Origin: Thioalkalivibrio sp. XN279
Lineage (GTDB): Bacteria > Pseudomonadota > Gammaproteobacteria > Steroidobacterales > XN24
DNA length: 64,000 bases
Assembly (NCBI RefSeq): GCF_011089885.1
Contig: NZ_JAANBD010000027.1
Location: 248,001-312,000 of the forward strand
Reading direction: 5' to 3'
The position numbers were made by a program, and so were the translations under genes. Position 1 is the stretch's first letter. The number at the start of each line of letters is the position of its first letter. The notes beneath the pieces were generated by a model. That model was not told the origin of the DNA. It did no database searches and saw nothing but the letters and a program-made list of their open reading frames with translations. Positions 21,051 to 31,750 of the stretch are shown in pieces.

Positions 21051-21449
21051 ATGGCACTCGGACGCGCGGACAGGCTCGTCGGAGACGAAACGAAGCCCCG
21101 GCCGTGGCGGCGGCGGCAGCGCGATTTCGCCTACGTGGCCTGGGCGTCGTTCCTCATGGCGTGCGCCGCATCGGCGGTGTTCTTTGCCATGGTCGATCCC
21201 GTGGTGCTCTCCGGCACGACGACCCCCGGCTGGGAGATCAGCCGCCAGGCCGGCTACGCCATCGGCTTTTTCGGCTTCTGGCTGCTGACCGCGGGAACGG
21301 CCGCCTTCGCCGTCTGGCTGGTGCGCACGGAACCGTCGGGCGGCGGCGCCGGAACCCGGCGACCGCGTGACGGTCAGAACAGGCGGCGGCGCGGATTACT
21401 GCGCCGCCGCGCCCGCCCGGCGGCCGGCCGGGACGCAGGGGACAACTGA
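21051..21449 (+). CDS. Small two-helix membrane protein between ccoP and ccoG
   Basis: A 132-residue protein with basic ends and two hydrophobic segments (about 29-48 and 69-91). The C-terminal 35 residues are extremely Arg/Gly-rich and probably disordered. It ends at the first base of the ccoG start codon and has GGAGGTAA upstream, so it is translated within the cbb3 operon. I recognise no named family. Small uncharacterised membrane proteins do occur at this position in other gammaproteobacterial cco operons, which suggests an accessory role in oxidase assembly. Confidence 0.7.
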   Translation: MALGRADRLVGDETKPRPWRRRQRDFAYVAWASFLMACAASAVFFAMVDPVVLSGTTTPGWEISRQAGYAIGFFGFWLLTAGTAAFAVWLVRTEPSGGGAGTRRPRDGQNRRRRGLLRRRARPAAGRDAGDN

Positions 21450-22870
21450 TGAACGCGCAAGTGCAGGGCGGCGCCGGCGGCGGCGCGCCCGAATCCTTTT
21501 ATGCCGCCCACCAGAAAATCTACCCGCGGGAAGTAAAGGGCCGTTATGCGTCCCTGCGCAATCTCGCGGTGTGGGTGCTGCTGGGCATTTATTACGTCCT
21601 GCCCTGGATCAGCTGGGAAGGACGGCAGGCGGTGCTGTTCGACCTGCCGGCGCGCAAGTTCTACATCTTCGGCCTCACCTTCTGGCCGCAGGACTTCTTC
21701 TTCATGGCGTGGCTGCTGATCATCGCCGCGCTGACGCTGTTCTTCGTCACCGCACTCGCCGGACGGCTGTGGTGCGGCTACGCCTGCCCGCAGACGGTAT
21801 GGACCGAAGCCTTCCTGTGGATGGAGCGCATCACCGAGGGCAACCACTCGCAGCGCCGCAAGCTCGACAAGGGTCCATGGACACGCGAGAAGGTGCTGCG
21901 CAAGTCCGCCAAGCAGGTCTTGTGGATCACCTTCTCACTGTGGACCGGCTTCACTTTCGTCGCCTATTTCACGCCCACCATGGAGCTCGGCGCCAAGGTG
22001 CTGAGCTTTTCCACCGGTCCCTGGGAGACTTTCTGGGTGCTGTTCTACGGCTTCGCCACCTATGGCAACGCCGGGCTCCTGCGTGAGCAGGTGTGCAAGT
22101 ACATGTGTCCCTATGCGCGCTTCCAGAGCGCCATGTTCGACAAGGACACGCTGATCATTTCCTACGATCGCCGGCGCGGCGAGCCGCGCGGCGGCCGCAA
22201 GCGTTCGGTGGACCCGAAGGCGGCCGGGCTGGGCGACTGCATCGACTGCAACATGTGCGTCCAGGTCTGTCCCACCGGCATCGACATCCGCGAGGGACTG
22301 CAGATCGAGTGCATCGCCTGCGCCGCCTGCGTCGACGTGTGCAACGATGTCATGGACAAGATGGAGTATCCGCGCGGCCTGGTGCGTTACACGACCCACA
22401 ACGCCATGGAGGAGCGCCAGCCGGTGCGCGTCCTGCGCCCGCGCGTCATGATCTACGCCACCCTGCTGCTGGCGTTGCTGATCGGCTTCGGCACGGCCGT
22501 GGCCAACCGCAGCACGCTCGTGGTGGACGTCATACGCGACCGCAACAGCCTGTATCGCGAGCTCCCCGGCGGCCGGGTCGAGAACGTGTACACCATCACC
22601 TTCGTCAACAAGACCGAGTCGCCGCGCGAGTACCGCGTCAGCGCCAGCGGGGTGGAGGGCGTCGAGCTGGAGTTCGACGTGCCGCTCCCCATCACTTCCG
22701 AACCCGGCGAGGTACGCCGCGTGCCGATGCGCATCCAGGCCCCGGTGGCCGCACTCCCTGCAGACGGCGCAGAGATCGAGGTCACGGTCGAGGCGATCGG
22801 CGCAGTGCCGGACATGGTGCGGCGCCAGACGCGCATCATCGGTCCCAGCGGCATGCCGGGAAGACGCTGA
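21449..22870 (+). CDS. ccoG: Cytochrome c oxidase accessory protein CcoG (RdxA/FixG)
   Basis: A 473-residue polyferredoxin with several membrane helices. The N-terminal part has the CGYACPQTVW motif, and two [4Fe-4S] ferredoxin clusters follow in CIDCNMCVQVCPTG and CIACAACVDVCN (about 261-297). A C-terminal Ig-like periplasmic domain ends the protein. CcoG has been shown to reduce Cu(II) to Cu(I) during cbb3 maturation. Its stop overlaps the ccoH start by one base. Confidence 0.94.
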   Translation: MNAQVQGGAGGGAPESFYAAHQKIYPREVKGRYASLRNLAVWVLLGIYYVLPWISWEGRQAVLFDLPARKFYIFGLTFWPQDFFFMAWLLIIAALTLFFVTALAGRLWCGYACPQTVWTEAFLWMERITEGNHSQRRKLDKGPWTREKVLRKSAKQVLWITFSLWTGFTFVAYFTPTMELGAKVLSFSTGPWETFWVLFYGFATYGNAGLLREQVCKYMCPYARFQSAMFDKDTLIISYDRRRGEPRGGRKRSVDPKAAGLGDCIDCNMCVQVCPTGIDIREGLQIECIACAACVDVCNDVMDKMEYPRGLVRYTTHNAMEERQPVRVLRPRVMIYATLLLALLIGFGTAVANRSTLVVDVIRDRNSLYRELPGGRVENVYTITFVNKTESPREYRVSASGVEGVELEFDVPLPITSEPGEVRRVPMRIQAPVAALPADGAEIEVTVEAIGAVPDMVRRQTRIIGPSGMPGRR

Positions 22871-23379
22871 TGAACCGCCTGTCGCACGAAGATTCCCCGC
22901 CCCCGCCCTGGTACCGGCAGTTCTGGCCGTGGTTCCTCATCGCGCTGCCGGCCAGCGTCGTCGTGGCGAGCATGTTCACCATCTGGCTGGCCACTCGTTC
23001 GCCCAATCCCATGGTGGTGGACGACTATGCCAAGATCGCGCGCAGCATCGAGCTGCGGCGCGAGCGCGACCTGGCCGCAGCAGCGCTCGGCGTGGCAGCC
23101 GAGATCCGGCTCGTGCCGGCGGCCGGACTGGTCGAAGTCCGCCTCGTCCCGGAAAGCGTGCAGCCGGAATCGCTGCAGCTGCGCCTCTCGCATCCCCTGG
23201 TTGCCGAGCGGGACCGTATCGTCGACCTGGTCAAGGTGCCGGGCGGGTGGAGCGGGCAACTCCCTGCACTGGAGGGGCGCTGGTACGTCCAGCTCTATCC
23301 GGGCGACGCCGGCTGGCGGCTGGCCGGCGAGCTCGCCGGCGAGAGCTCGCTGCGCCTCACGCCCCCCGAGGCGCCCTGA
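22870..23379 (+). CDS. ccoH: FixH-family oxidase assembly protein
   Basis: A 169-residue protein with the FixH/CcoH layout: the N-terminal motif PPPPWYRQFWPWFLIALPAS, one membrane helix (about 22-43), the conserved SPNPMVVDDYAK just outside it, and a periplasmic beta-sandwich. CcoH is required for stable assembly of cbb3 oxidase. It overlaps ccoG by one base and is followed 6 bp later by ccoI. Confidence 0.9.
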   Translation: MNRLSHEDSPPPPWYRQFWPWFLIALPASVVVASMFTIWLATRSPNPMVVDDYAKIARSIELRRERDLAAAALGVAAEIRLVPAAGLVEVRLVPESVQPESLQLRLSHPLVAERDRIVDLVKVPGGWSGQLPALEGRWYVQLYPGDAGWRLAGELAGESSLRLTPPEAP

Positions 23380-23385
23380 GGCCTC

Positions 23386-25848
23386 GTGGCACAACCCCGG
23401 TCGTCCAACTGCTTCCATTGCGGCGAGGCGCTGACCGGCACCGAGCCGTGGTTCGTGGCAATCGAGGGCGAGTCTCACCGCGTCTGCTGCCCGGGCTGCA
23501 AGGCGGTGGCGGAACTCATCCGCGACAGCGGCCTGTCAGATTTCTATCGCTTCCGCACCCTGCCCGCAGGGCGCCCCGCGGACGCGGCCACGGCCGCCCC
23601 GGAGTTGCCCTGGCAGCCTTTTGACCGTCCGGAAATGCTGGAAGCGGTCAGCGCGCCGGCCGGCGACGGGCTGCGCAGCTGCACCATGCTGGTCGAGGGC
23701 GTGCGCTGCGCCGCCTGCGGCTGGCTCATCGAACGCAGCCTCGAGCAGATACCGGGCGTGCGCGAGATCCGCGTCAACCCGGCCACGGCGCGGGCCCGAC
23801 TGGTGTGGGAGCCGGGCGTGCTGCCGCTGAGCGGCGCGCTCGGCGTCCTGTCCCGCCTCGGCTACCAGCCGCATCCCGGCAGCGCCGGCGCCGCCGACAT
23901 GGCGCTGCGGGAACGTCGCGCCGCCCTGCGCCGGCTCGGCGTTGCGGGCATCGGCATGATGCAGGTGATGATGTACGCGGTGGCCATGTACGTCGGCGCC
24001 TTCCAGGACATGGACGCCAGCCTCGAGCAGCTGTTCCGCTGGGTCAGCCTGCTCGTGGCGACCCCGGTGGCGCTGTACGCCGGGCGGCCCTTCTTCGCCG
24101 GCGCCTGGCGCGACCTGCGCTCCGGCCGCCCCGGCATGGACGTGCCCGTCGCCCTCGCGGTCGGCGGCGCCTGGTCGGCCAGCGTGCTGCACACGCTCAG
24201 CGGACAGGGCGAGGTGTATTTCGACTCGGTCACCATGTTCGTGTTCTTCCTGTCCCTCGCGCGTTACCTGGAGATGAGCGCGCGACATCATGCCGGCGAC
24301 ACCCAGGAAGCGCTGGCGCGGCTGCTGCCCGAGGCCGCGCGGCGGCGTGGCCCCGCTGGGGAATGGGAGACCGTGGCCTTGCGCGAACTGCGCCCCGGCG
24401 ACGTGGTCTCGGTGCGACACGGCGAAACCGTGCCCGCCGACGGCCGTCTCATGATCGACGGCGCCCGGCTGGACGAGGCGATGCTCACCGGGGAGTCCCG
24501 TCCGCGCCTGCGGCGCCAGGGCGAAGCGGCGCTGGCCGGCAGCGTCAACCTCGGTGACCCGCTGGAGTTCACCGTGGAGCGCACCGGCGGCGAGACCCTG
24601 GTGTCCTCCATCGGGCGCCTGCTCGACCGGGCGCAGTCGGAGCGCACGCCCATGGCCGCCGCGGCCGATCGCGTCGCGCGCTGGTTCGTGCTGGGCGTCC
24701 TCAGCGCCGCGGCGCTGACCTGGTTCGCCTGGAACGCCATCGATCCGGCGCGGGCCTTCGAAATCACGCTGGCGGTGCTGGTGGTCACCTGTCCCTGCGC
24801 CCTGTCAATCGCCACCCCCGCCGCGCTCACGGCAGCGACTGGCCTGCTGGCCAGGCGCGGGCTGCTGGTGACGCGCGCCGGCGCCGTGGAGCGCCTGGCC
24901 CGGGTCGACCGGGTGATCTTCGACAAGACCGGGACCCTCACCCTGGGCCAGCTGCGCATCACCGCGGTGGAGGCAGCGCCCGGCTGGGAGGCCGACGCGG
25001 CGCTGGCCGTGGCGGCCGCGCTGGAATCCGTCTCCGAGCATCCCATCGCCCGCGCCTTCGGCATGGCCCATCCCGCCGGTGCGCCGACGGATGTGCAGGT
25101 TGCGCCAGGACGCGGCATCGAGGGCAACGTGCTGGGAAGACGCTGGCGCCTCGGCAAGCCCGACTGGGCGGCGGCGCTCGCCGGCGTCGCGCCGCCCGAC
25201 CTGCACGGCGACGACACGGCCGTCTGCCTCGCCGACGACGAAAAGGTGCGCGCCGTGTTCCGGCTCGCCGACCGGCTGCGCGGCAGTGCTCGCGAAGAGC
25301 TGCAGAAACTGCGGCACCTGGGCCTGGCCACCGAGGTGGCGAGCGGGGACGCCACCGAGGCCGTGGCGCCCATGGCCGCGGCAGTCGGCGCGGCACGGTG
25401 GCAGGGCGGCATGACCCCGGAAGACAAGCTGGCGCTGCTGCGTGAGCGGCAGCAGGCAGGCGAAACCGTGGTGATGGTGGGCGACGGAGTGAACGACGCC
25501 CCGGTGCTGGCCGGGGCCGATGTCTCCATCGCCATGGCCGGCGGCACCCCACTGGCGCAGACCAGCGCCGACATGGTGCTGCTCGGCGAGTCCCTGGCGC
25601 CCCTGGCCGAGGGCATCCTCCAGGCGCGCCGCACCCTCAGGATCGTGCGCCAGAACCTGGCCTGGGCAGCGGGCTACAACCTGGTGGCGCTGCCACTCGC
25701 CGCCACCGGCTTCATCGCGCCGTGGATGGCCGCCATCGGCATGTCCGCGAGCTCGCTGCTGGTGGTGCTGAATGCCACGCGGCTGTCGCGCCCGCCCCGC
25801 TCCCGCATCGCCACGGACGCGCCGCTCGTCGCCGGAGCCGGCGCATGA
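23386..25848 (+). CDS. ccoI: Copper-translocating P-type ATPase for cbb3 maturation
   Basis: An 820-residue P1B ATPase. It has an N-terminal CxxC zinc-ribbon-like region plus CCPGC near residues 29-33, a heavy-metal-associated domain with CAAC (about 107-110), the membrane metal motif CPCAL, the phosphorylation site DKTGT and the hinge GDGVNDAPVL. This is the FixI/CtpA type, which exports copper slowly for loading into CcoN rather than for detoxification. The start is GTG. It overlaps ccoS by 4 bp. Confidence 0.93.
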   Translation: MAQPRSSNCFHCGEALTGTEPWFVAIEGESHRVCCPGCKAVAELIRDSGLSDFYRFRTLPAGRPADAATAAPELPWQPFDRPEMLEAVSAPAGDGLRSCTMLVEGVRCAACGWLIERSLEQIPGVREIRVNPATARARLVWEPGVLPLSGALGVLSRLGYQPHPGSAGAADMALRERRAALRRLGVAGIGMMQVMMYAVAMYVGAFQDMDASLEQLFRWVSLLVATPVALYAGRPFFAGAWRDLRSGRPGMDVPVALAVGGAWSASVLHTLSGQGEVYFDSVTMFVFFLSLARYLEMSARHHAGDTQEALARLLPEAARRRGPAGEWETVALRELRPGDVVSVRHGETVPADGRLMIDGARLDEAMLTGESRPRLRRQGEAALAGSVNLGDPLEFTVERTGGETLVSSIGRLLDRAQSERTPMAAAADRVARWFVLGVLSAAALTWFAWNAIDPARAFEITLAVLVVTCPCALSIATPAALTAATGLLARRGLLVTRAGAVERLARVDRVIFDKTGTLTLGQLRITAVEAAPGWEADAALAVAAALESVSEHPIARAFGMAHPAGAPTDVQVAPGRGIEGNVLGRRWRLGKPDWAAALAGVAPPDLHGDDTAVCLADDEKVRAVFRLADRLRGSAREELQKLRHLGLATEVASGDATEAVAPMAAAVGAARWQGGMTPEDKLALLRERQQAGETVVMVGDGVNDAPVLAGADVSIAMAGGTPLAQTSADMVLLGESLAPLAEGILQARRTLRIVRQNLAWAAGYNLVALPLAATGFIAPWMAAIGMSASSLLVVLNATRLSRPPRSRIATDAPLVAGAGA

Positions 25849-26830: not shown

Positions 26831-27229
26831 CTATTCGGGCGGCTGCTCCAGCGGCTGCTCCGGCGCCTGCGGCTCGGACACGATCAGGGCGCGCAAGCGC
26901 GCATCCTCCGCCGCGGCCTCGGCCTTGAGCCGCAATTCGCGCTCGCGGTCCAGCCGGGCCCGATACTCGGCCCGCGCCGACTCGAAAGCCTCCTCGCGCG
27001 CCTTGCGCAGCAGCCGCTCCTCGATCGCGGCAATGCGCTCGGCGGCCTGGCGGGCGTTCTGGCATTCCGCTCCCATGACCGAGCCCGGATCGCTGTCGCA
27101 ACGCGCCAGCGTGCCGTAGAGCAGGATCTCGTTTTCCATGAACTCGGCCACCGTCAGCGGCCGTTTTTCCTCGCAACCCGCCGCGGCCAGGAGGCTGGCT
27201 GCGAGCGCGACGGCAAAGGCATATCTCAT
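26831..27229 (-). CDS. EexN-like lipoprotein
   Basis: A 132-residue lipoprotein: hydrophobic leader and lipobox LAAAGC with the lipidated Cys near 19, then a pattern like EexN entry-exclusion lipoproteins (TVAEFMENEILLYGTLARCDSDPGSVMGAECQNARQAAERI, two conserved Cys), then a long charged helix rich in Arg/Glu. The ATG at 27229 is chosen over earlier ones because it sits about 9 nt after AGGGGGG. There are no conjugation genes around. It lies 72 bp downstream of the giant ATPase gene on the same strand and may share its transcript. Confidence 0.7.
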   Translation of the reverse strand: MRYAFAVALAASLLAAAGCEEKRPLTVAEFMENEILLYGTLARCDSDPGSVMGAECQNARQAAERIAAIEERLLRKAREEAFESARAEYRARLDRERELRLKAEAAAEDARLRALIVSEPQAPEQPLEQPPE

Positions 27230-27301
27230 TGCTTGCATCCCCCCTGCTACACGCCGGAGTCTAGCCGACACCGCGTCACGTCGCGCGCGGCCCAGTTCAC
27301 A

Positions 27302-30300
27302 CTATTCGCGCGCCGGATCCTGGCTCAGCTCACCTTCGGCGTCGAAATACAGCTGCAGGCGCGCCTGCCAGGCCTCGAGATCGACCGTCCAGTCCTCCGG
27401 CGGCGGGTCCGCGCGCGCGAAGTCCAGCACTGTCATGGTTTCCCCGTGGGCGCCGCCCACCAGTACCACCCGCGTGCCTGCGGCATCCGCGCTGCGCCAG
27501 CCGGCCGGCGGCACGGAAGCCGGCAGCATGCGACTCGAGAGCACCTGCAGCCGACCCTCCTCGAGCCCGAGCCGATGCAGCCATGCCGGCGTCTGCACCA
27601 GCAGCGCAACGCCGTCCGGGGAGAAGGCGAGATGCAGCACGGGCGCCGCCAGCGCCAGGCTCACGGCGCGTCCCGCGGGACCCATGCCCCAGGCGCGTAC
27701 CAGGCCAGTCGCACCCCCGGCGGCAACACCCGGGCCACCGTTGCTCAGTGCAATGCTGTCCACGGGTGCGTCCAGCGAGCCGAACCAGAGGCGCTCGCCC
27801 CCGGCGACGTCCCAGCTCTCGACCAGTCCTTCGGGCGTGCCCGTGAATGCCCGGCTCCCGGCCGTGTCGAGCGCCACGGCTGTCACCTCGCGCCCCGCGC
27901 CGAGCATCGGTCCGGGGACACCCTCCAGCCCATCCCAGATGCGAGCGCCGCGTTCACCGGCGACGGCGACGGTACGCCCGTCCGGCGCCAGTGCCAGCGC
28001 AGCCAGCCGGCCGCCGCCATGCTGGAAGACCGGCCCGACGGCGTTGCCGTCCACCGTGTTCCACAGCACGATGCTGCCATCCTCGCCGGCGCTCGCCAGT
28101 CGCGTGCCGTCGGGGGAGAACGCCAGTGCGGCGACACCCTCGCCATGGCGGGTATCCGCGTCGCTGATGCCGGCAAACTGCAGGCGCAAGGACTCCGGGT
28201 CGCGCAGCCGCAATGCCACGCGCCCGTCAGCCGTGCCCGAGGCGGCACGGAGCCCGGCGGGTCCGAGGGCGACCACCGCCGGGATGCGTGGCAGGGCCAT
28301 CGGGTCCGCCGCAGCGCGCGGCCGCCATGTCCGCACTGCCCGGGTGCCTCGCCCGCCGACGAAGCGCCCGTCAGGCAGGCGCAGCGCAACGGCCGGGGGC
28401 AGCAGCGGCGGCGCATCCGCACGGTCGGTGCGTGCACCGTGGTCACGCAGCACCGGCGCCAAGGCGATCCCGGCCGCCAGGTCCCACAGCTCGTAACCGC
28501 GGCCCGCATCCAGGTTGATCAGCTGCCCGCCCCCGGGGGTGAAACCCGAGGCGCCCGCACCGTTCTCGCGGACCAGCCGCAGCGGCGTGCCGGGATCACC
28601 GAGATCCCAGGCCAGCAGCCGCCCCGCAGCGTCAATCGCGGACAGCCAGCGGCCGGCCGGCCCGAACTCCATGCGCGTCACCGGGCTGCCCGGCTGCAGC
28701 TCTGCGGCCAGTGCGCCGTCCGTCACGTGCCACACGCGCACGAAGCCGTCCTGCCCTGCCACTGCCAGCTGCAGCCCGCCCGGCGAGACCGCGAGCGCAG
28801 CAACCTCGCCGGCGACCGGCTGCTCCCGCAGCAGCCGCCCGTCATCCACGGACCGGATCCAGGCGCCGCGGGCCTCGCCGTCCACGGCTGCGACGTACCG
28901 CCCGTCGGGAGACACCACCGGCCCGACGGCCAGCAGGGACGCGGTGAAATAGCTGAAGCGCTCCGTGCCGTCGACGGCGTCCAGGGCGCGAAGCCGGTGG
29001 CCGGCCGCATCACGCTCGAGCAGTAGCAGCGTGCGGTCGTCGGCGAAACCCAGCCGGCGCTGAGCGGCATCCAGCGCAATGGTCGCCAGCGGCGCTCCCG
29101 AGGCCGTGTCCACTGTCTGCAGCCGGCCGCCGGCGGCCGCATTGCGCGGGACGGCTGCGGCAATGGCGCCATCCGGGGAGAGCGCCGCGGCCACGACCGA
29201 GCTCTGCGTCGGCGCCTCGAGCAGCAGCGGGTTCTCGGGCTGGTCCTGCGCCCCCATCCCCGCGGCGCCGGAGAGGCGCAGCGACCAGCCGCGCAGCACG
29301 CCCGGCGGGCCGCCGGACCGGTCTTCGACTTCCAGCGTCCAGGTCCCGCGCGCCTGCTCGCCACGCAAGGCGGCCAGGGCCGCCGCCTGGCGCTCCTCGA
29401 TGACCAGCCCATCACCCTCCGGCCGCGCCTGCGACAGCGGCAACACGACGACGCGCCCGGCAGGAGAGACCAGTCGCGCGTGCAGTCGCGCCGGGTCCTC
29501 GTGCTCCAGGCGCAGTTCCAGGCGGACGGCGGCGACACGGCCCTGGCCGTCGATGCTGAGCCGCCGGCGCACCGGCACGAACTCCTCCGCCAGCAACTCG
29601 AGGGCGCCGCCTGCGACCGCGGCCCCGGTCTCTCCGTCCCAGCGTTGCACCTGGTTGCCCCCGCTCAGGGTGACCAGGTGCCGGCCGGATGCAGCGGCCG
29701 CCAGGAACTCCACCGGCGCCGCCGTCCGGATGACGTTGAGCAACTGCGCATAATCGCCGCCGGCGAGTGCCGCCGCGCGGCCCGCGTCGGCGGTAGGCCC
29801 GGCCTGGTAGGCGCGCAGGCGGTACAGCAGCGCGGCGTCGCGATGCTCGGCGGCCTCCGCCGCCGCGGCGCGCCGCTCCCAGAATTCGACCAGCAGGCCG
29901 TCCGCCCGCGCTTCGTATCCCGGCAAGGCGCGCATACTGGCATCCGCGGCGGCGACCACGGCCCAGGTATCCGCACGCCGGCTGTGGCGCGCGAGCACGC
30001 GCGAGAACAGGCGGTCGGCCTTGGCGCGAAATCCCGGGATGCGGCGCAGTGCGCTCCACGCCTCTTGCGCCTCCCCCATCTCCACGGACGCCACGCGCAA
30101 CGTTTCCTCGTACGGTCGGGGCAGGACTTCCGCATACGTCCAGGCGCCACCCGCCACGAGCGCGACCACTGCCGCGATGCGACCGACGCGCCCCCATTCC
30201 ACGGGCAGCGCCTCGCGCGCCCAACGTCGCGAGAAGGCCTCGGCGTAAATACGATTGCGCACCGCCAGGCGACGCTCGGCAGTCACCGTGACGAGACCGC

Positions 30301-31360
30301 ACACCCGCAGCAACTGGTGCTTCGGATTGTCCGGCTCGTGGCGCACGCGCCAGCCACGGTGGATGCGGCGGTACAGGCGCAGTGCGGGGCGGGCGAGCTT
30401 GCCGGCCCGGTCCAGGCTGTCCAGCACGCGGCTCATGCTGGCCTCGGTCCTGACCACGTTGCGACCGAGGAAACGCGTGCGCACCAGTGCGTCCACGGCC
30501 TCGTCGGAGTCGATGCGTGCCGCGTTCCGCGCCACCGCCTGGCACAGGCGTTGCGTCAGGTAAGGATGCCCGCCGGTCCAGTACAGGACCCGGTACAGGG
30601 CACGCTCCGCATCCCCGGGCGCCAGCCCGAGCCCCTCTGCCAGCGGGCGCGCCTGTTCGAAGCTGAAGTCGTGCAGCTCGATCCGTGTGCTGATCTCCGT
30701 GACGGCCTCGCTGGCGCGTTCCGCCGGCCCCGCGGGCAGCGCCGTCCCGAGCAGCGCGAAACTCAGGCGCCCGTACTCGGGCTCCCCCGCGCGCGCATCG
30801 AAGCAGCCGCGGATCACCTTGAACAGCTCGGCGGCATGGTCCGCCTGCTCGACGCTCTCCATCTCGTCCAGCAACAGCGTCACCGGCCCCTTGGTGCCGC
30901 CGAGGACCACGGTCCAGAAAAACTCGCCCAGGCGCTGCGCCGGCGACAGGGGCAGGTGCTCCTGCCACCAGGCCTGCAGGTCCAGCTTGAGGCGCAGGTC
31001 GCGCAGCACCCGGTAAGCCAGGCCGTAATACCACCGGCCCGCCTCGGCCGAGCCGTCGCGGCTGCCGAGCTGCGACAGGTCCACCACCGCCGCGAGGCCG
31101 CCCGCTTCACGGACGCGGCGCGCCGTGCTGGCCGCGAGGCTGCTCTTGCCAGAGAAGCGCGGCGCGATGACGTGACAGTAGTCGCCCGACAACAGCCGCT
31201 CGAGCAATTGCCGGTCGGCGGCGCGGCGGAGGTAGCAGCGCCTCTCGGGGGCGACGGGGCCACCGGCGACGAAAAAATCCCCGGCGCGGCGACGCGGTGT
31301 CTTCCGGGCTGGAGGCACGCCCCCGGCCGGCGCAGCCGGCGTGTCGCTGGATGGATCCAT
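27302..31360 (-). CDS. Giant AAA-like ATPase / transmembrane / P-domain / WD40 protein
   Basis: A 1352-residue multidomain protein. An AAA_35-type P-loop domain covers about 27-380 (Walker A PRFSGKSS at 67-74, Walker B TLLLDEME at 161-168, ending in a winged-helix-like tail). A single hydrophobic helix lies at about 393-410, then a helical linker to 545. A proprotein-convertase-like P-domain is at about 598-698 (ARLVSPAGRVVVL, GTWTLEVEDRSGG, LRGWSLRLSG). WD40-type repeats flank it and fill 715-1340 (for example FSPDGTRLASAGEDGSIVLWN). If the helix is a membrane span, the ATPase is cytoplasmic and the propellers periplasmic. An ATG at 31381 is an alternative start. A STAND-type sensor or defence role is possible but unproven. 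Confidence 0.85.
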   Translation of the reverse strand: MDPSSDTPAAPAGGVPPARKTPRRRAGDFFVAGGPVAPERRCYLRRAADRQLLERLLSGDYCHVIAPRFSGKSSLAASTARRVREAGGLAAVVDLSQLGSRDGSAEAGRWYYGLAYRVLRDLRLKLDLQAWWQEHLPLSPAQRLGEFFWTVVLGGTKGPVTLLLDEMESVEQADHAAELFKVIRGCFDARAGEPEYGRLSFALLGTALPAGPAERASEAVTEISTRIELHDFSFEQARPLAEGLGLAPGDAERALYRVLYWTGGHPYLTQRLCQAVARNAARIDSDEAVDALVRTRFLGRNVVRTEASMSRVLDSLDRAGKLARPALRLYRRIHRGWRVRHEPDNPKHQLLRVCGLVTVTAERRLAVRNRIYAEAFSRRWAREALPVEWGRVGRIAAVVALVAGGAWTYAEVLPRPYEETLRVASVEMGEAQEAWSALRRIPGFRAKADRLFSRVLARHSRRADTWAVVAAADASMRALPGYEARADGLLVEFWERRAAAAEAAEHRDAALLYRLRAYQAGPTADAGRAAALAGGDYAQLLNVIRTAAPVEFLAAAASGRHLVTLSGGNQVQRWDGETGAAVAGGALELLAEEFVPVRRRLSIDGQGRVAAVRLELRLEHEDPARLHARLVSPAGRVVVLPLSQARPEGDGLVIEERQAAALAALRGEQARGTWTLEVEDRSGGPPGVLRGWSLRLSGAAGMGAQDQPENPLLLEAPTQSSVVAAALSPDGAIAAAVPRNAAAGGRLQTVDTASGAPLATIALDAAQRRLGFADDRTLLLLERDAAGHRLRALDAVDGTERFSYFTASLLAVGPVVSPDGRYVAAVDGEARGAWIRSVDDGRLLREQPVAGEVAALAVSPGGLQLAVAGQDGFVRVWHVTDGALAAELQPGSPVTRMEFGPAGRWLSAIDAAGRLLAWDLGDPGTPLRLVRENGAGASGFTPGGGQLINLDAGRGYELWDLAAGIALAPVLRDHGARTDRADAPPLLPPAVALRLPDGRFVGGRGTRAVRTWRPRAAADPMALPRIPAVVALGPAGLRAASGTADGRVALRLRDPESLRLQFAGISDADTRHGEGVAALAFSPDGTRLASAGEDGSIVLWNTVDGNAVGPVFQHGGGRLAALALAPDGRTVAVAGERGARIWDGLEGVPGPMLGAGREVTAVALDTAGSRAFTGTPEGLVESWDVAGGERLWFGSLDAPVDSIALSNGGPGVAAGGATGLVRAWGMGPAGRAVSLALAAPVLHLAFSPDGVALLVQTPAWLHRLGLEEGRLQVLSSRMLPASVPPAGWRSADAAGTRVVLVGGAHGETMTVLDFARADPPPEDWTVDLEAWQARLQLYFDAEGELSQDPARE

Positions 31361-31483: not shown

Positions 31484-31750
31484 ATGAACCAGAGTTGCCA
31501 CGAACACAACCGCAGCCGGCCGCTGCCCGCTGCGCCCAAGACCTGGGGCATCCGGCTCAGCCTGCCTGAGGACGACCCAATGCACGCCGTGCTGGGGGAT
31601 GACTGGCAGGAGTACCAGTGGTTCGCCAGCGAGGCCGCGCGCGAGGCGAAGCTCGGGCAATTGCAACGCCAGTTCACCTATTACCGCACGGGTGACCGGC
31701 CCAGCTTCGTGCTCGAGCGCGTCAACCGGCTGCCGGAAGATGTCGCCTGA
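31484..31750 (+). CDS. Conserved small hypothetical protein
   Basis: An 88-residue soluble protein with two recognisable blocks, WGIRLSLPEDDPMHAVLGDDWQ and a C-terminal FTYYRTGDRPSFVLERVN. The Trp/Tyr content is high and there is no signal or membrane segment. The start follows AGCGGGATCGCC. Its final 11 bp overlap the thioesterase gene in another frame, and it is divergent from the giant ATPase gene. I believe similar short proteins are widespread in gammaproteobacteria but can give no function. Confidence 0.65.
   Translation: MNQSCHEHNRSRPLPAAPKTWGIRLSLPEDDPMHAVLGDDWQEYQWFASEAAREAKLGQLQRQFTYYRTGDRPSFVLERVNRLPEDVA

Follow-up and report, generated by a model that had tools for sequence, protein, structure and literature searches.

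The 64,000-nucleotide stretch of the Thioalkalivibrio sp. XN279 genome analysed here (the window; contig NZ_JAANBD010000027.1, positions 248,001 to 312,000) harbours a gene encoding a protein of 1352 residues, which appears to span the inner membrane once. Its STAND-type ATPase module is predicted to lie in the cytoplasm, and two predicted WD40 propellers with an inserted P-domain very probably lie in the periplasm. We consider it moderately probable that the protein is an envelope sensor, namely a single-pass inner-membrane STAND ATPase that works through a nucleotide switch and acts through an effector in trans. The gene and its parts, in positions of the window, are the following:

27302 to 31360, minus strand: gene of the membrane STAND protein, open reading frame of 1352 residues with ATG at 31360
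30461 to 31279, minus strand: nucleotide-binding domain (NBD) and helical domain (HD) of the STAND module, residues 28-300, from the AAA_35 match and VIA matches
31139 to 31162, minus strand: Walker A, residues 67-74 (PRFSGKSS)
30857 to 30880, minus strand: Walker B, residues 161-168 (TLLLDEME)
30203 to 30457, minus strand: winged-helix domain (WHD), residues 302-386, assigned from secondary structure in the model; matches to NLRs and CED-4 stop near 387
30125 to 30196, minus strand: single membrane helix, residues 389-412, from hydropathy, AlphaFold, and cysteine and charge bias
29738 to 30118, minus strand: helical neck, residues 415-541, from the models and a pairwise identity of 39.8% against about 27% in the propellers
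29597 to 29737, minus strand: first blade of propeller 1, residues 542-588, from strands in the models
29270 to 29572, minus strand: P-domain within propeller 1, residues 597-697, from Pfam, profile and model
28325 to 29254, minus strand: remainder of propeller 1, residues 703-1012, from strands in the model
27422 to 28291, minus strand: propeller 2 with seven WD40 blades, residues 1024-1313, from the VIA match to 5yzv

The family was compared in an alignment of 31 rows, composed of the window, the locus L002 and 29 loci from near relatives; these rows are not exactly the 31 gene-bearing genomes described below, one of which (G057) gave no locus. Homologue starts were set by script at the first ATG within 50 residues before a conserved motif. 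Contig ends truncate four rows, and in one a TAG precedes the chosen start; identities were calculated from 27 rows, cysteine and charge counts from all 31. A locus of Planctomycetaceae (L003), whose match is confined to 127 residues of the WD40 region, was left out.

The N-terminal part of the protein carries an AAA_35 P-loop module with both Walker motifs at the residues given in the original prediction. Pfam recognises AAA_35 at residues 34-281 above its cut-off (E 9.3e-17), and G71, K72 and S74 of Walker A, D165 of Walker B, and G264 and P266 of a GxP motif are invariant in 31/31 rows. In the AlphaFold model of residues 1-600 (predicted local distance difference test, pLDDT, 86.4; predicted template modelling score, pTM, 0.62; 31 sequences), the nucleotide module stops near residue 387. 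VIA-align matched approximately residues 28-387 to 2qen (Z 19.6), 2fna (19.1), RPP1 (17.4), NRC4 (17.1) and CED-4 (16.8), with aligned lengths of 296-304 and a root-mean-square deviation (rmsd) of 4.0-4.6. Since ORC/Cdc6 proteins match as well, the fold alone cannot tell STAND from ORC/Cdc6, and the STAND assignment rests on fold, AAA_35 and GxP motif together. As modelled, residues 28-387 are a STAND-type NBD-HD-WHD module, which may oligomerise in a nucleotide-dependent manner. The position after D165 is occupied by E in 17 rows, D in nine, G in three and R in two; because this second acid of Walker B is not strictly kept, a nucleotide switch seems likelier than a fast motor. Residues 1-25 have a pLDDT below 50 and no Pfam domain among the matches listed, and no N-terminal CARD or other effector domain was found there. 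Searches of the genome of the strain detected one AAA_35 and one P-domain, both within this gene.

The hydrophobic stretch that follows the module, which had been proposed as one hydrophobic helix (residues 393-410), is the protein-wide maximum of the 19-residue hydropathy window in all 31 rows, and AlphaFold draws it as one separate 24-residue helix (389-412). Cysteine is distributed very unevenly around it, with 152 among 11,956 residues before the helix versus three among 27,801 after it (Fisher 5e-75). Lysine and arginine are more frequent on the N side of the helix in 26 rows, equal in four and lower in one, which is a positive-inside bias, and an aromatic motif with the consensus WYTQxLP marks the helix exit. 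In ten gene clusters from the neighbourhood, which by our own assignment comprise exported and cytoplasmic ones, the cysteine content is 0.38-2.5%, and in related AAA_35-WD40 proteins of Cyanobacteria and Chloroflexota it is about 0.3-0.9% after residue 390. Because of the cysteine exclusion, the positive-inside bias and the separate helix, the propellers and the P-domain are placed in the periplasm with high confidence, if on indirect evidence, and the proposed arrangement with the sensor outside and the ATPase inside is well supported by the same three observations.

The AlphaFold model of residues 415-1352 (pLDDT 89.1, pTM 0.86) shows in order a neck to approximately residue 541, one blade, the P-domain at approximately 597-697, six blades to approximately 1012, and propeller 2. 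The protein is therefore predicted to contain two seven-bladed WD40 propellers with the P-domain inserted after the first blade of the first one, where the blade count of propeller 1 and the place of the insert were read off the strand list of the model. The seven blades of propeller 2 are supported by its match to 5yzv (VIA Z 29.8, 274 residues aligned, rmsd 2.9), and Pfam recognises WD40 above its cut-off (E 5e-21). A WD40 search in 19 relatives gave matches nowhere, its controls included, and so carries no information.

The P-domain had been proposed at residues 598-698 between WD40 repeats, and it is a true P-domain according to Pfam, the profile search against the PDB and the strands in the model. 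P_proprotein is matched at residues 610-696 (E 2.3e-12, 47.3 bits versus a cut-off of 21), and the family P-domain profile retrieved the extracellular serine protease 3hjr/3wqb (2.8e-9), kexin (5e-4) and furin (0.016), followed by four filamin chains at 0.15 to 0.99. The ten best structure matches of this profile are proteases of the subtilase kind. VIA-align matches fall mostly on propeller 2 and the nucleotide module and hardly cover propeller 1 and the P-domain, with none to the P-domain among the 50 matches listed. Pfam recognises the domain in 26/31 rows at E 0.01 or better; L028 ends at about this point, and the single-genus rows L022, L027, L030 and L031 look most divergent. The P-domain alone gave one weak and uninformative match among plasmids (Vibrio, E 0.009). 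Neither a model lacking the P-domain nor one with the hydrophobic segment buried in a soluble fold, the two outcomes named in the original prediction as counting against it, appeared.

Conservation differs along the protein, with a mean pairwise identity of 48% in NBD-HD, 39% in WHD, 40% in the neck, 32% in the P-domain, 27% in the propellers and 23% in blade 1 (27 full rows). The switch (48%) and the transducing parts (38-40%) are conserved above the propellers, and the P-domain lies between them, which fits a fixed switch with a more variable sensor.

Downstream of the STAND gene lies a second gene of interest:

26831 to 27238, minus strand: gene of an EexN-family lipoprotein, 63 bp downstream of the STAND gene, matching NF033894; translation may instead begin further upstream, at a GTG at 27271

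The encoded lipoprotein matches NF033894 with E 2.1e-12 (46.8 bits, cut-off 33). Seven of the eight members scanned pass this cut-off, and L041 scores 30.1. Among 59 near relatives, the lipoprotein profile was detected in 22/31 genomes with the STAND gene versus 0/28 without it (Fisher 2e-9). In 19 of these 22 genomes both genes are on the same contig, and there the lipoprotein gene is always on the same strand and downstream, at less than 300 bp to approximately 10 kb. The lipobox cysteine and two further cysteines are invariant in 11/11 members, and none of the eleven has Asp at position +2 of the lipobox. According to the Lol rule of E. coli, a lipoprotein without Asp at +2 goes to the outer membrane, so the lack of this residue suggests an outer membrane location for the EexN-family lipoprotein. 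The lipoprotein is probably a partner of the STAND protein, to which it may bind. Similar to other EexN-family lipoproteins in their match to the model, the locus members differ from them in being chromosomal, in most cases having a long charged C-terminal extension, and being tied to a STAND gene. No conjugation gene was found among the identified neighbours of the locus, and the name EexN was not taken as evidence for conjugation.

The STAND gene is present in 31/59 near relatives as a single copy each, in one genome as two pieces on two contigs. A probe made from the neck detected the family in 137/296 genomes of the order. In a class sample the family was found in 3/369 genomes, all three of the same order, and in none outside it. 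AAA_35 matches over the cut-off occur once per genome in the 31 genomes with the gene, within that gene, and in 0/28 of the others; two matches lie below the cut-off (G019, G039). AAA_35 is rare in a phylum sample as well (7/398 genomes, that of the strain included). At the corresponding locus of eleven genomes without the gene, at least one usual neighbour (icd, thioesterase, TonB receptor, Ysc84, kinase) is present in ten, and the STAND gene is absent. Presence mostly follows families, which suggests that the gene was inherited vertically with some loss.

The closest STAND modules found outside the order are encoded on plasmids of Cyanobacteria, Chloroflexota and Abditibacteriota, with 29-38% identity over approximately residues 30-389 (in the 30 records listed of 40). 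Ten plasmid records (L076-L085) with eleven sensor-type AAA_35 genes were examined. In 9/10 records, an AAA_35 gene immediately precedes or overlaps the start of the sensor gene, and these upstream genes form one separate clade; in the tenth, another sensor-type gene takes this place. All five upstream genes scanned with Pfam have AAA_35, three of them with TIR, CHAT or HTH domains. A hydrophobic helix follows the STAND module in 8/11 sensor genes, and then WD40 in four and an annotated CHASE2 in one; two AAA_35-WD40 proteins, both in L080, have no such helix. The plasmid pairs generally begin with an AAA_35 gene, which in some cases has TIR, CHAT or HTH, and continue with a sensor-type AAA_35 gene with WD40, CHASE2, GUN4 or PAS-GAF; they appear to be a separate two-gene system.

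In a tree with 16 of the 31 family rows, the family of the window forms one clade (100/100 support), and it groups with the sensor genes, split from the upstream genes by a 100/100 branch; eight rows, including that of the window, have an unusual letter make-up. No upstream AAA_35 effector half was found beside the family gene, as judged from AAA_35 matches over the cut-off in the 59 relatives. Judged from these comparisons, the family resembles the sensor half of such a pair standing alone, without an effector half; with the midpoint root used, loss of the effector half cannot be told apart from its never having been gained. The family shares the STAND module with the sensor genes of the pairs and the post-module hydrophobic helix with 8/11 of them. 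Nevertheless, the pairs differ in their coupled upstream AAA_35 gene, in the absence of any match to the family P-domain profile (0/11 sensor-type genes), and in that cysteine is not excluded after the helix.

STAND switches are generally seen as soluble, with the sensor joined directly to the nucleotide domain. Apaf-1, a scaffold of human cell death, consists of NBD-HD-WHD, helices and two WD40 propellers. The protein of the window shares NBD-HD-WHD followed by helices with Apaf-1, CED-4 and plant NLR proteins, and two WD40 propellers with Apaf-1; compared with them, it adds a membrane helix between switch and sensor and a P-domain, and has no N-terminal effector domain. The P-domain of convertases follows a subtilisin-like protease, whereas here no protease domain was detected among the Pfam matches listed (25 of 39). 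Anti-phage STAND proteins (Avs, bNACHT) have a defence locus and a known effector, neither of which was found here with PADLOC and among the Pfam matches listed. Ser/Thr kinases with WD40 in planctomycetes mostly have one membrane helix, with the enzyme inside and WD40 predicted in the periplasm (PMC11032199). Their layout is the same, but a kinase replaces the STAND switch, and the portion of that paper used here mentions no P-domain. The original prediction regarded a layout spanning the membrane as novel. This did not hold, as AAA_35 proteins with a helix and WD40 or CHASE2 on cyanobacterial and Chloroflexota plasmids, and the kinase receptors cited above, have the same bare layout. The portions of the conflict-system literature used here (PMC7159879, PMC8195603) cover membrane-linked variants and the Apaf-1 mechanism, and not this layout. 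Nor did the open-access literature yield a description of AAA_35 or AAA-like with WD40, or of P_proprotein with WD40, in this combination. Three features are distinctive and new: the P-domain inserted in a propeller, the solitary occurrence of the gene, and its probable lipoprotein partner, which does not figure in the original prediction.

The sensor reading can be described as follows. The NBD-HD-WHD switch would lie in the cytoplasm, and the two propellers with the inserted P-domain in the periplasm, where they would read a trigger, perhaps via the lipoprotein. This trigger could be a periplasmic protein, a cell-wall or outer-membrane ligand, or a changed state of the EexN-type lipoprotein. 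The signal would be relayed through the neck and the membrane helix and would alter the nucleotide state or the clustering of the STAND modules, which, once clustered, may recruit or act on a separate effector encoded elsewhere. We infer the sensor role, the direction of signalling, lipoprotein binding, oligomerisation and the effector in trans. That the protein represents a receptor class of its own, an Apaf-1-like switch worked across the inner membrane by a periplasmic double propeller and P-domain, the co-receptor being an EexN-type lipoprotein of the outer membrane, is possible and still rather doubtful.

Several observations weigh against the sensor reading. Low cysteine alone is no proof of export: in three clusters of exported genes from these loci the cysteine content is 0.38-2.0%. 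Archaeal ORC2 (1w5t) fits the nucleotide module about equally well (VIA Z 17.7). The second Walker B acid is missing from 5/31 rows. The listed Pfam matches include no effector domain in cis, and a dedicated cytoplasmic partner gene was not found either. STAND sensors are normally joined directly to the NBD, and coupling through a membrane is an assumption. The Fisher value of the lipoprotein co-occurrence ignores shared ancestry, as most sampled families wholly have or wholly lack the gene; moreover, the lipoprotein profile has no match in nine of the 31 STAND-bearing genomes, and in several others the gene is kilobases off or on another contig.

The protein could instead be an ATPase for envelope assembly or scaffolding, whose propellers hold periplasmic partners, comparable to the propellers of BamB and TolB, and whose ATPase drives or times assembly with no signal involved. 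Such a role would fit the stable position on the chromosome, the single AAA_35 gene in each genome, the link with an outer-membrane-type lipoprotein and the lack of an effector domain in the Pfam listing. We nonetheless consider it unlikely, since the ATPase module resembles STAND switches (though also ORC/Cdc6), and the irregular second Walker B acid noted above speaks against it too. A protease-system remnant, in which the P-domain was left from a subtilase and has no function of its own, can draw on the fact that P-domains usually follow subtilases and on the proteases among the ten best profile matches. It is highly improbable, even more so than the soluble protein discussed below, because the identity within the P-domain (32%) exceeds that of the surrounding propellers (27%), Pfam recognises the domain in most rows, and the listed Pfam matches include no protease domain.

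An envelope sensor directed against phages or mobile elements, which would detect phage adsorption or conjugation and trigger a response, is consistent with the fold common to Avs and NLRs, with TIR, CHAT or HTH in three of the five upstream genes that were scanned from related cyanobacterial pairs, and with the EexN name of the partner. We judge this improbable, as PADLOC detected nothing in ten neighbours and, in the protein, one model only (HEAT-ARM_XIII, residues 1020-1101, over the WD40 region), the nearby genes are icd, aceK and ccoG, and presence follows families with one AAA_35 gene per genome. The neighbourhood is housekeeping, and the suggestion that homologues cluster in defence islands was rejected on these grounds. 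A soluble cytoplasmic STAND-WD40 protein, with the hydrophobic segment as a buried helix, finds a parallel in the two helix-free proteins of L080. It is very improbable in view of the cysteine exclusion after the helix, the positive-inside bias, the separate 24-residue helix and the aromatic exit motif.

Other genes around the STAND gene were examined as candidate partners. Gene maps of loci outside the window come from a simple codon-position score, and genes may be missed or misplaced in them. One small gene marks the locus:

31484 to 31750, plus strand: conserved small gene of 88 residues, divergent from the STAND gene

The conserved protein has approximately 85 residues, and its homologue L033 has no Pfam or NCBIfam match. 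The small-gene profile is found in 46/59 relatives, and in mapped loci the gene frequently lies close to icd and to genes for a thioesterase and a TonB receptor. It is present in 30/31 genomes with the STAND gene and also in 16/28 without it, and the small gene was therefore rejected as a dedicated partner. A small RIO/Kdo-like kinase (L039:6910-7572, L038:11539-12222) adjoins the small gene in 10/21 loci; its best NCBIfam models, PRK12274 and PRK09188, are both below cut-off, and it was not called at the corresponding place in the genome of the window. This kinase was rejected as a specific partner as well, being also near the locus in 5/11 loci examined from genomes without the STAND gene. 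Downstream of the locus, at 21449-25848, are a CcoG gene and a gene for an E1-E2 metal-transport ATPase, which are typical of cytochrome oxidase maturation clusters. A scan for promoters and terminators gave no more than chance.

Returning to the sensor reading, a STAND protein conserved across a lineage with its sensor on the far side of the membrane would allow the control of such a switch through a membrane to be tested in an ordinary bacterium. The family provides an example of a P-domain without a protease and a possible functional context for EexN-type lipoproteins outside conjugation. If the proposed receptor class is real, information from the outer membrane would be carried to a nucleotide-switch assembly in the cytoplasm.

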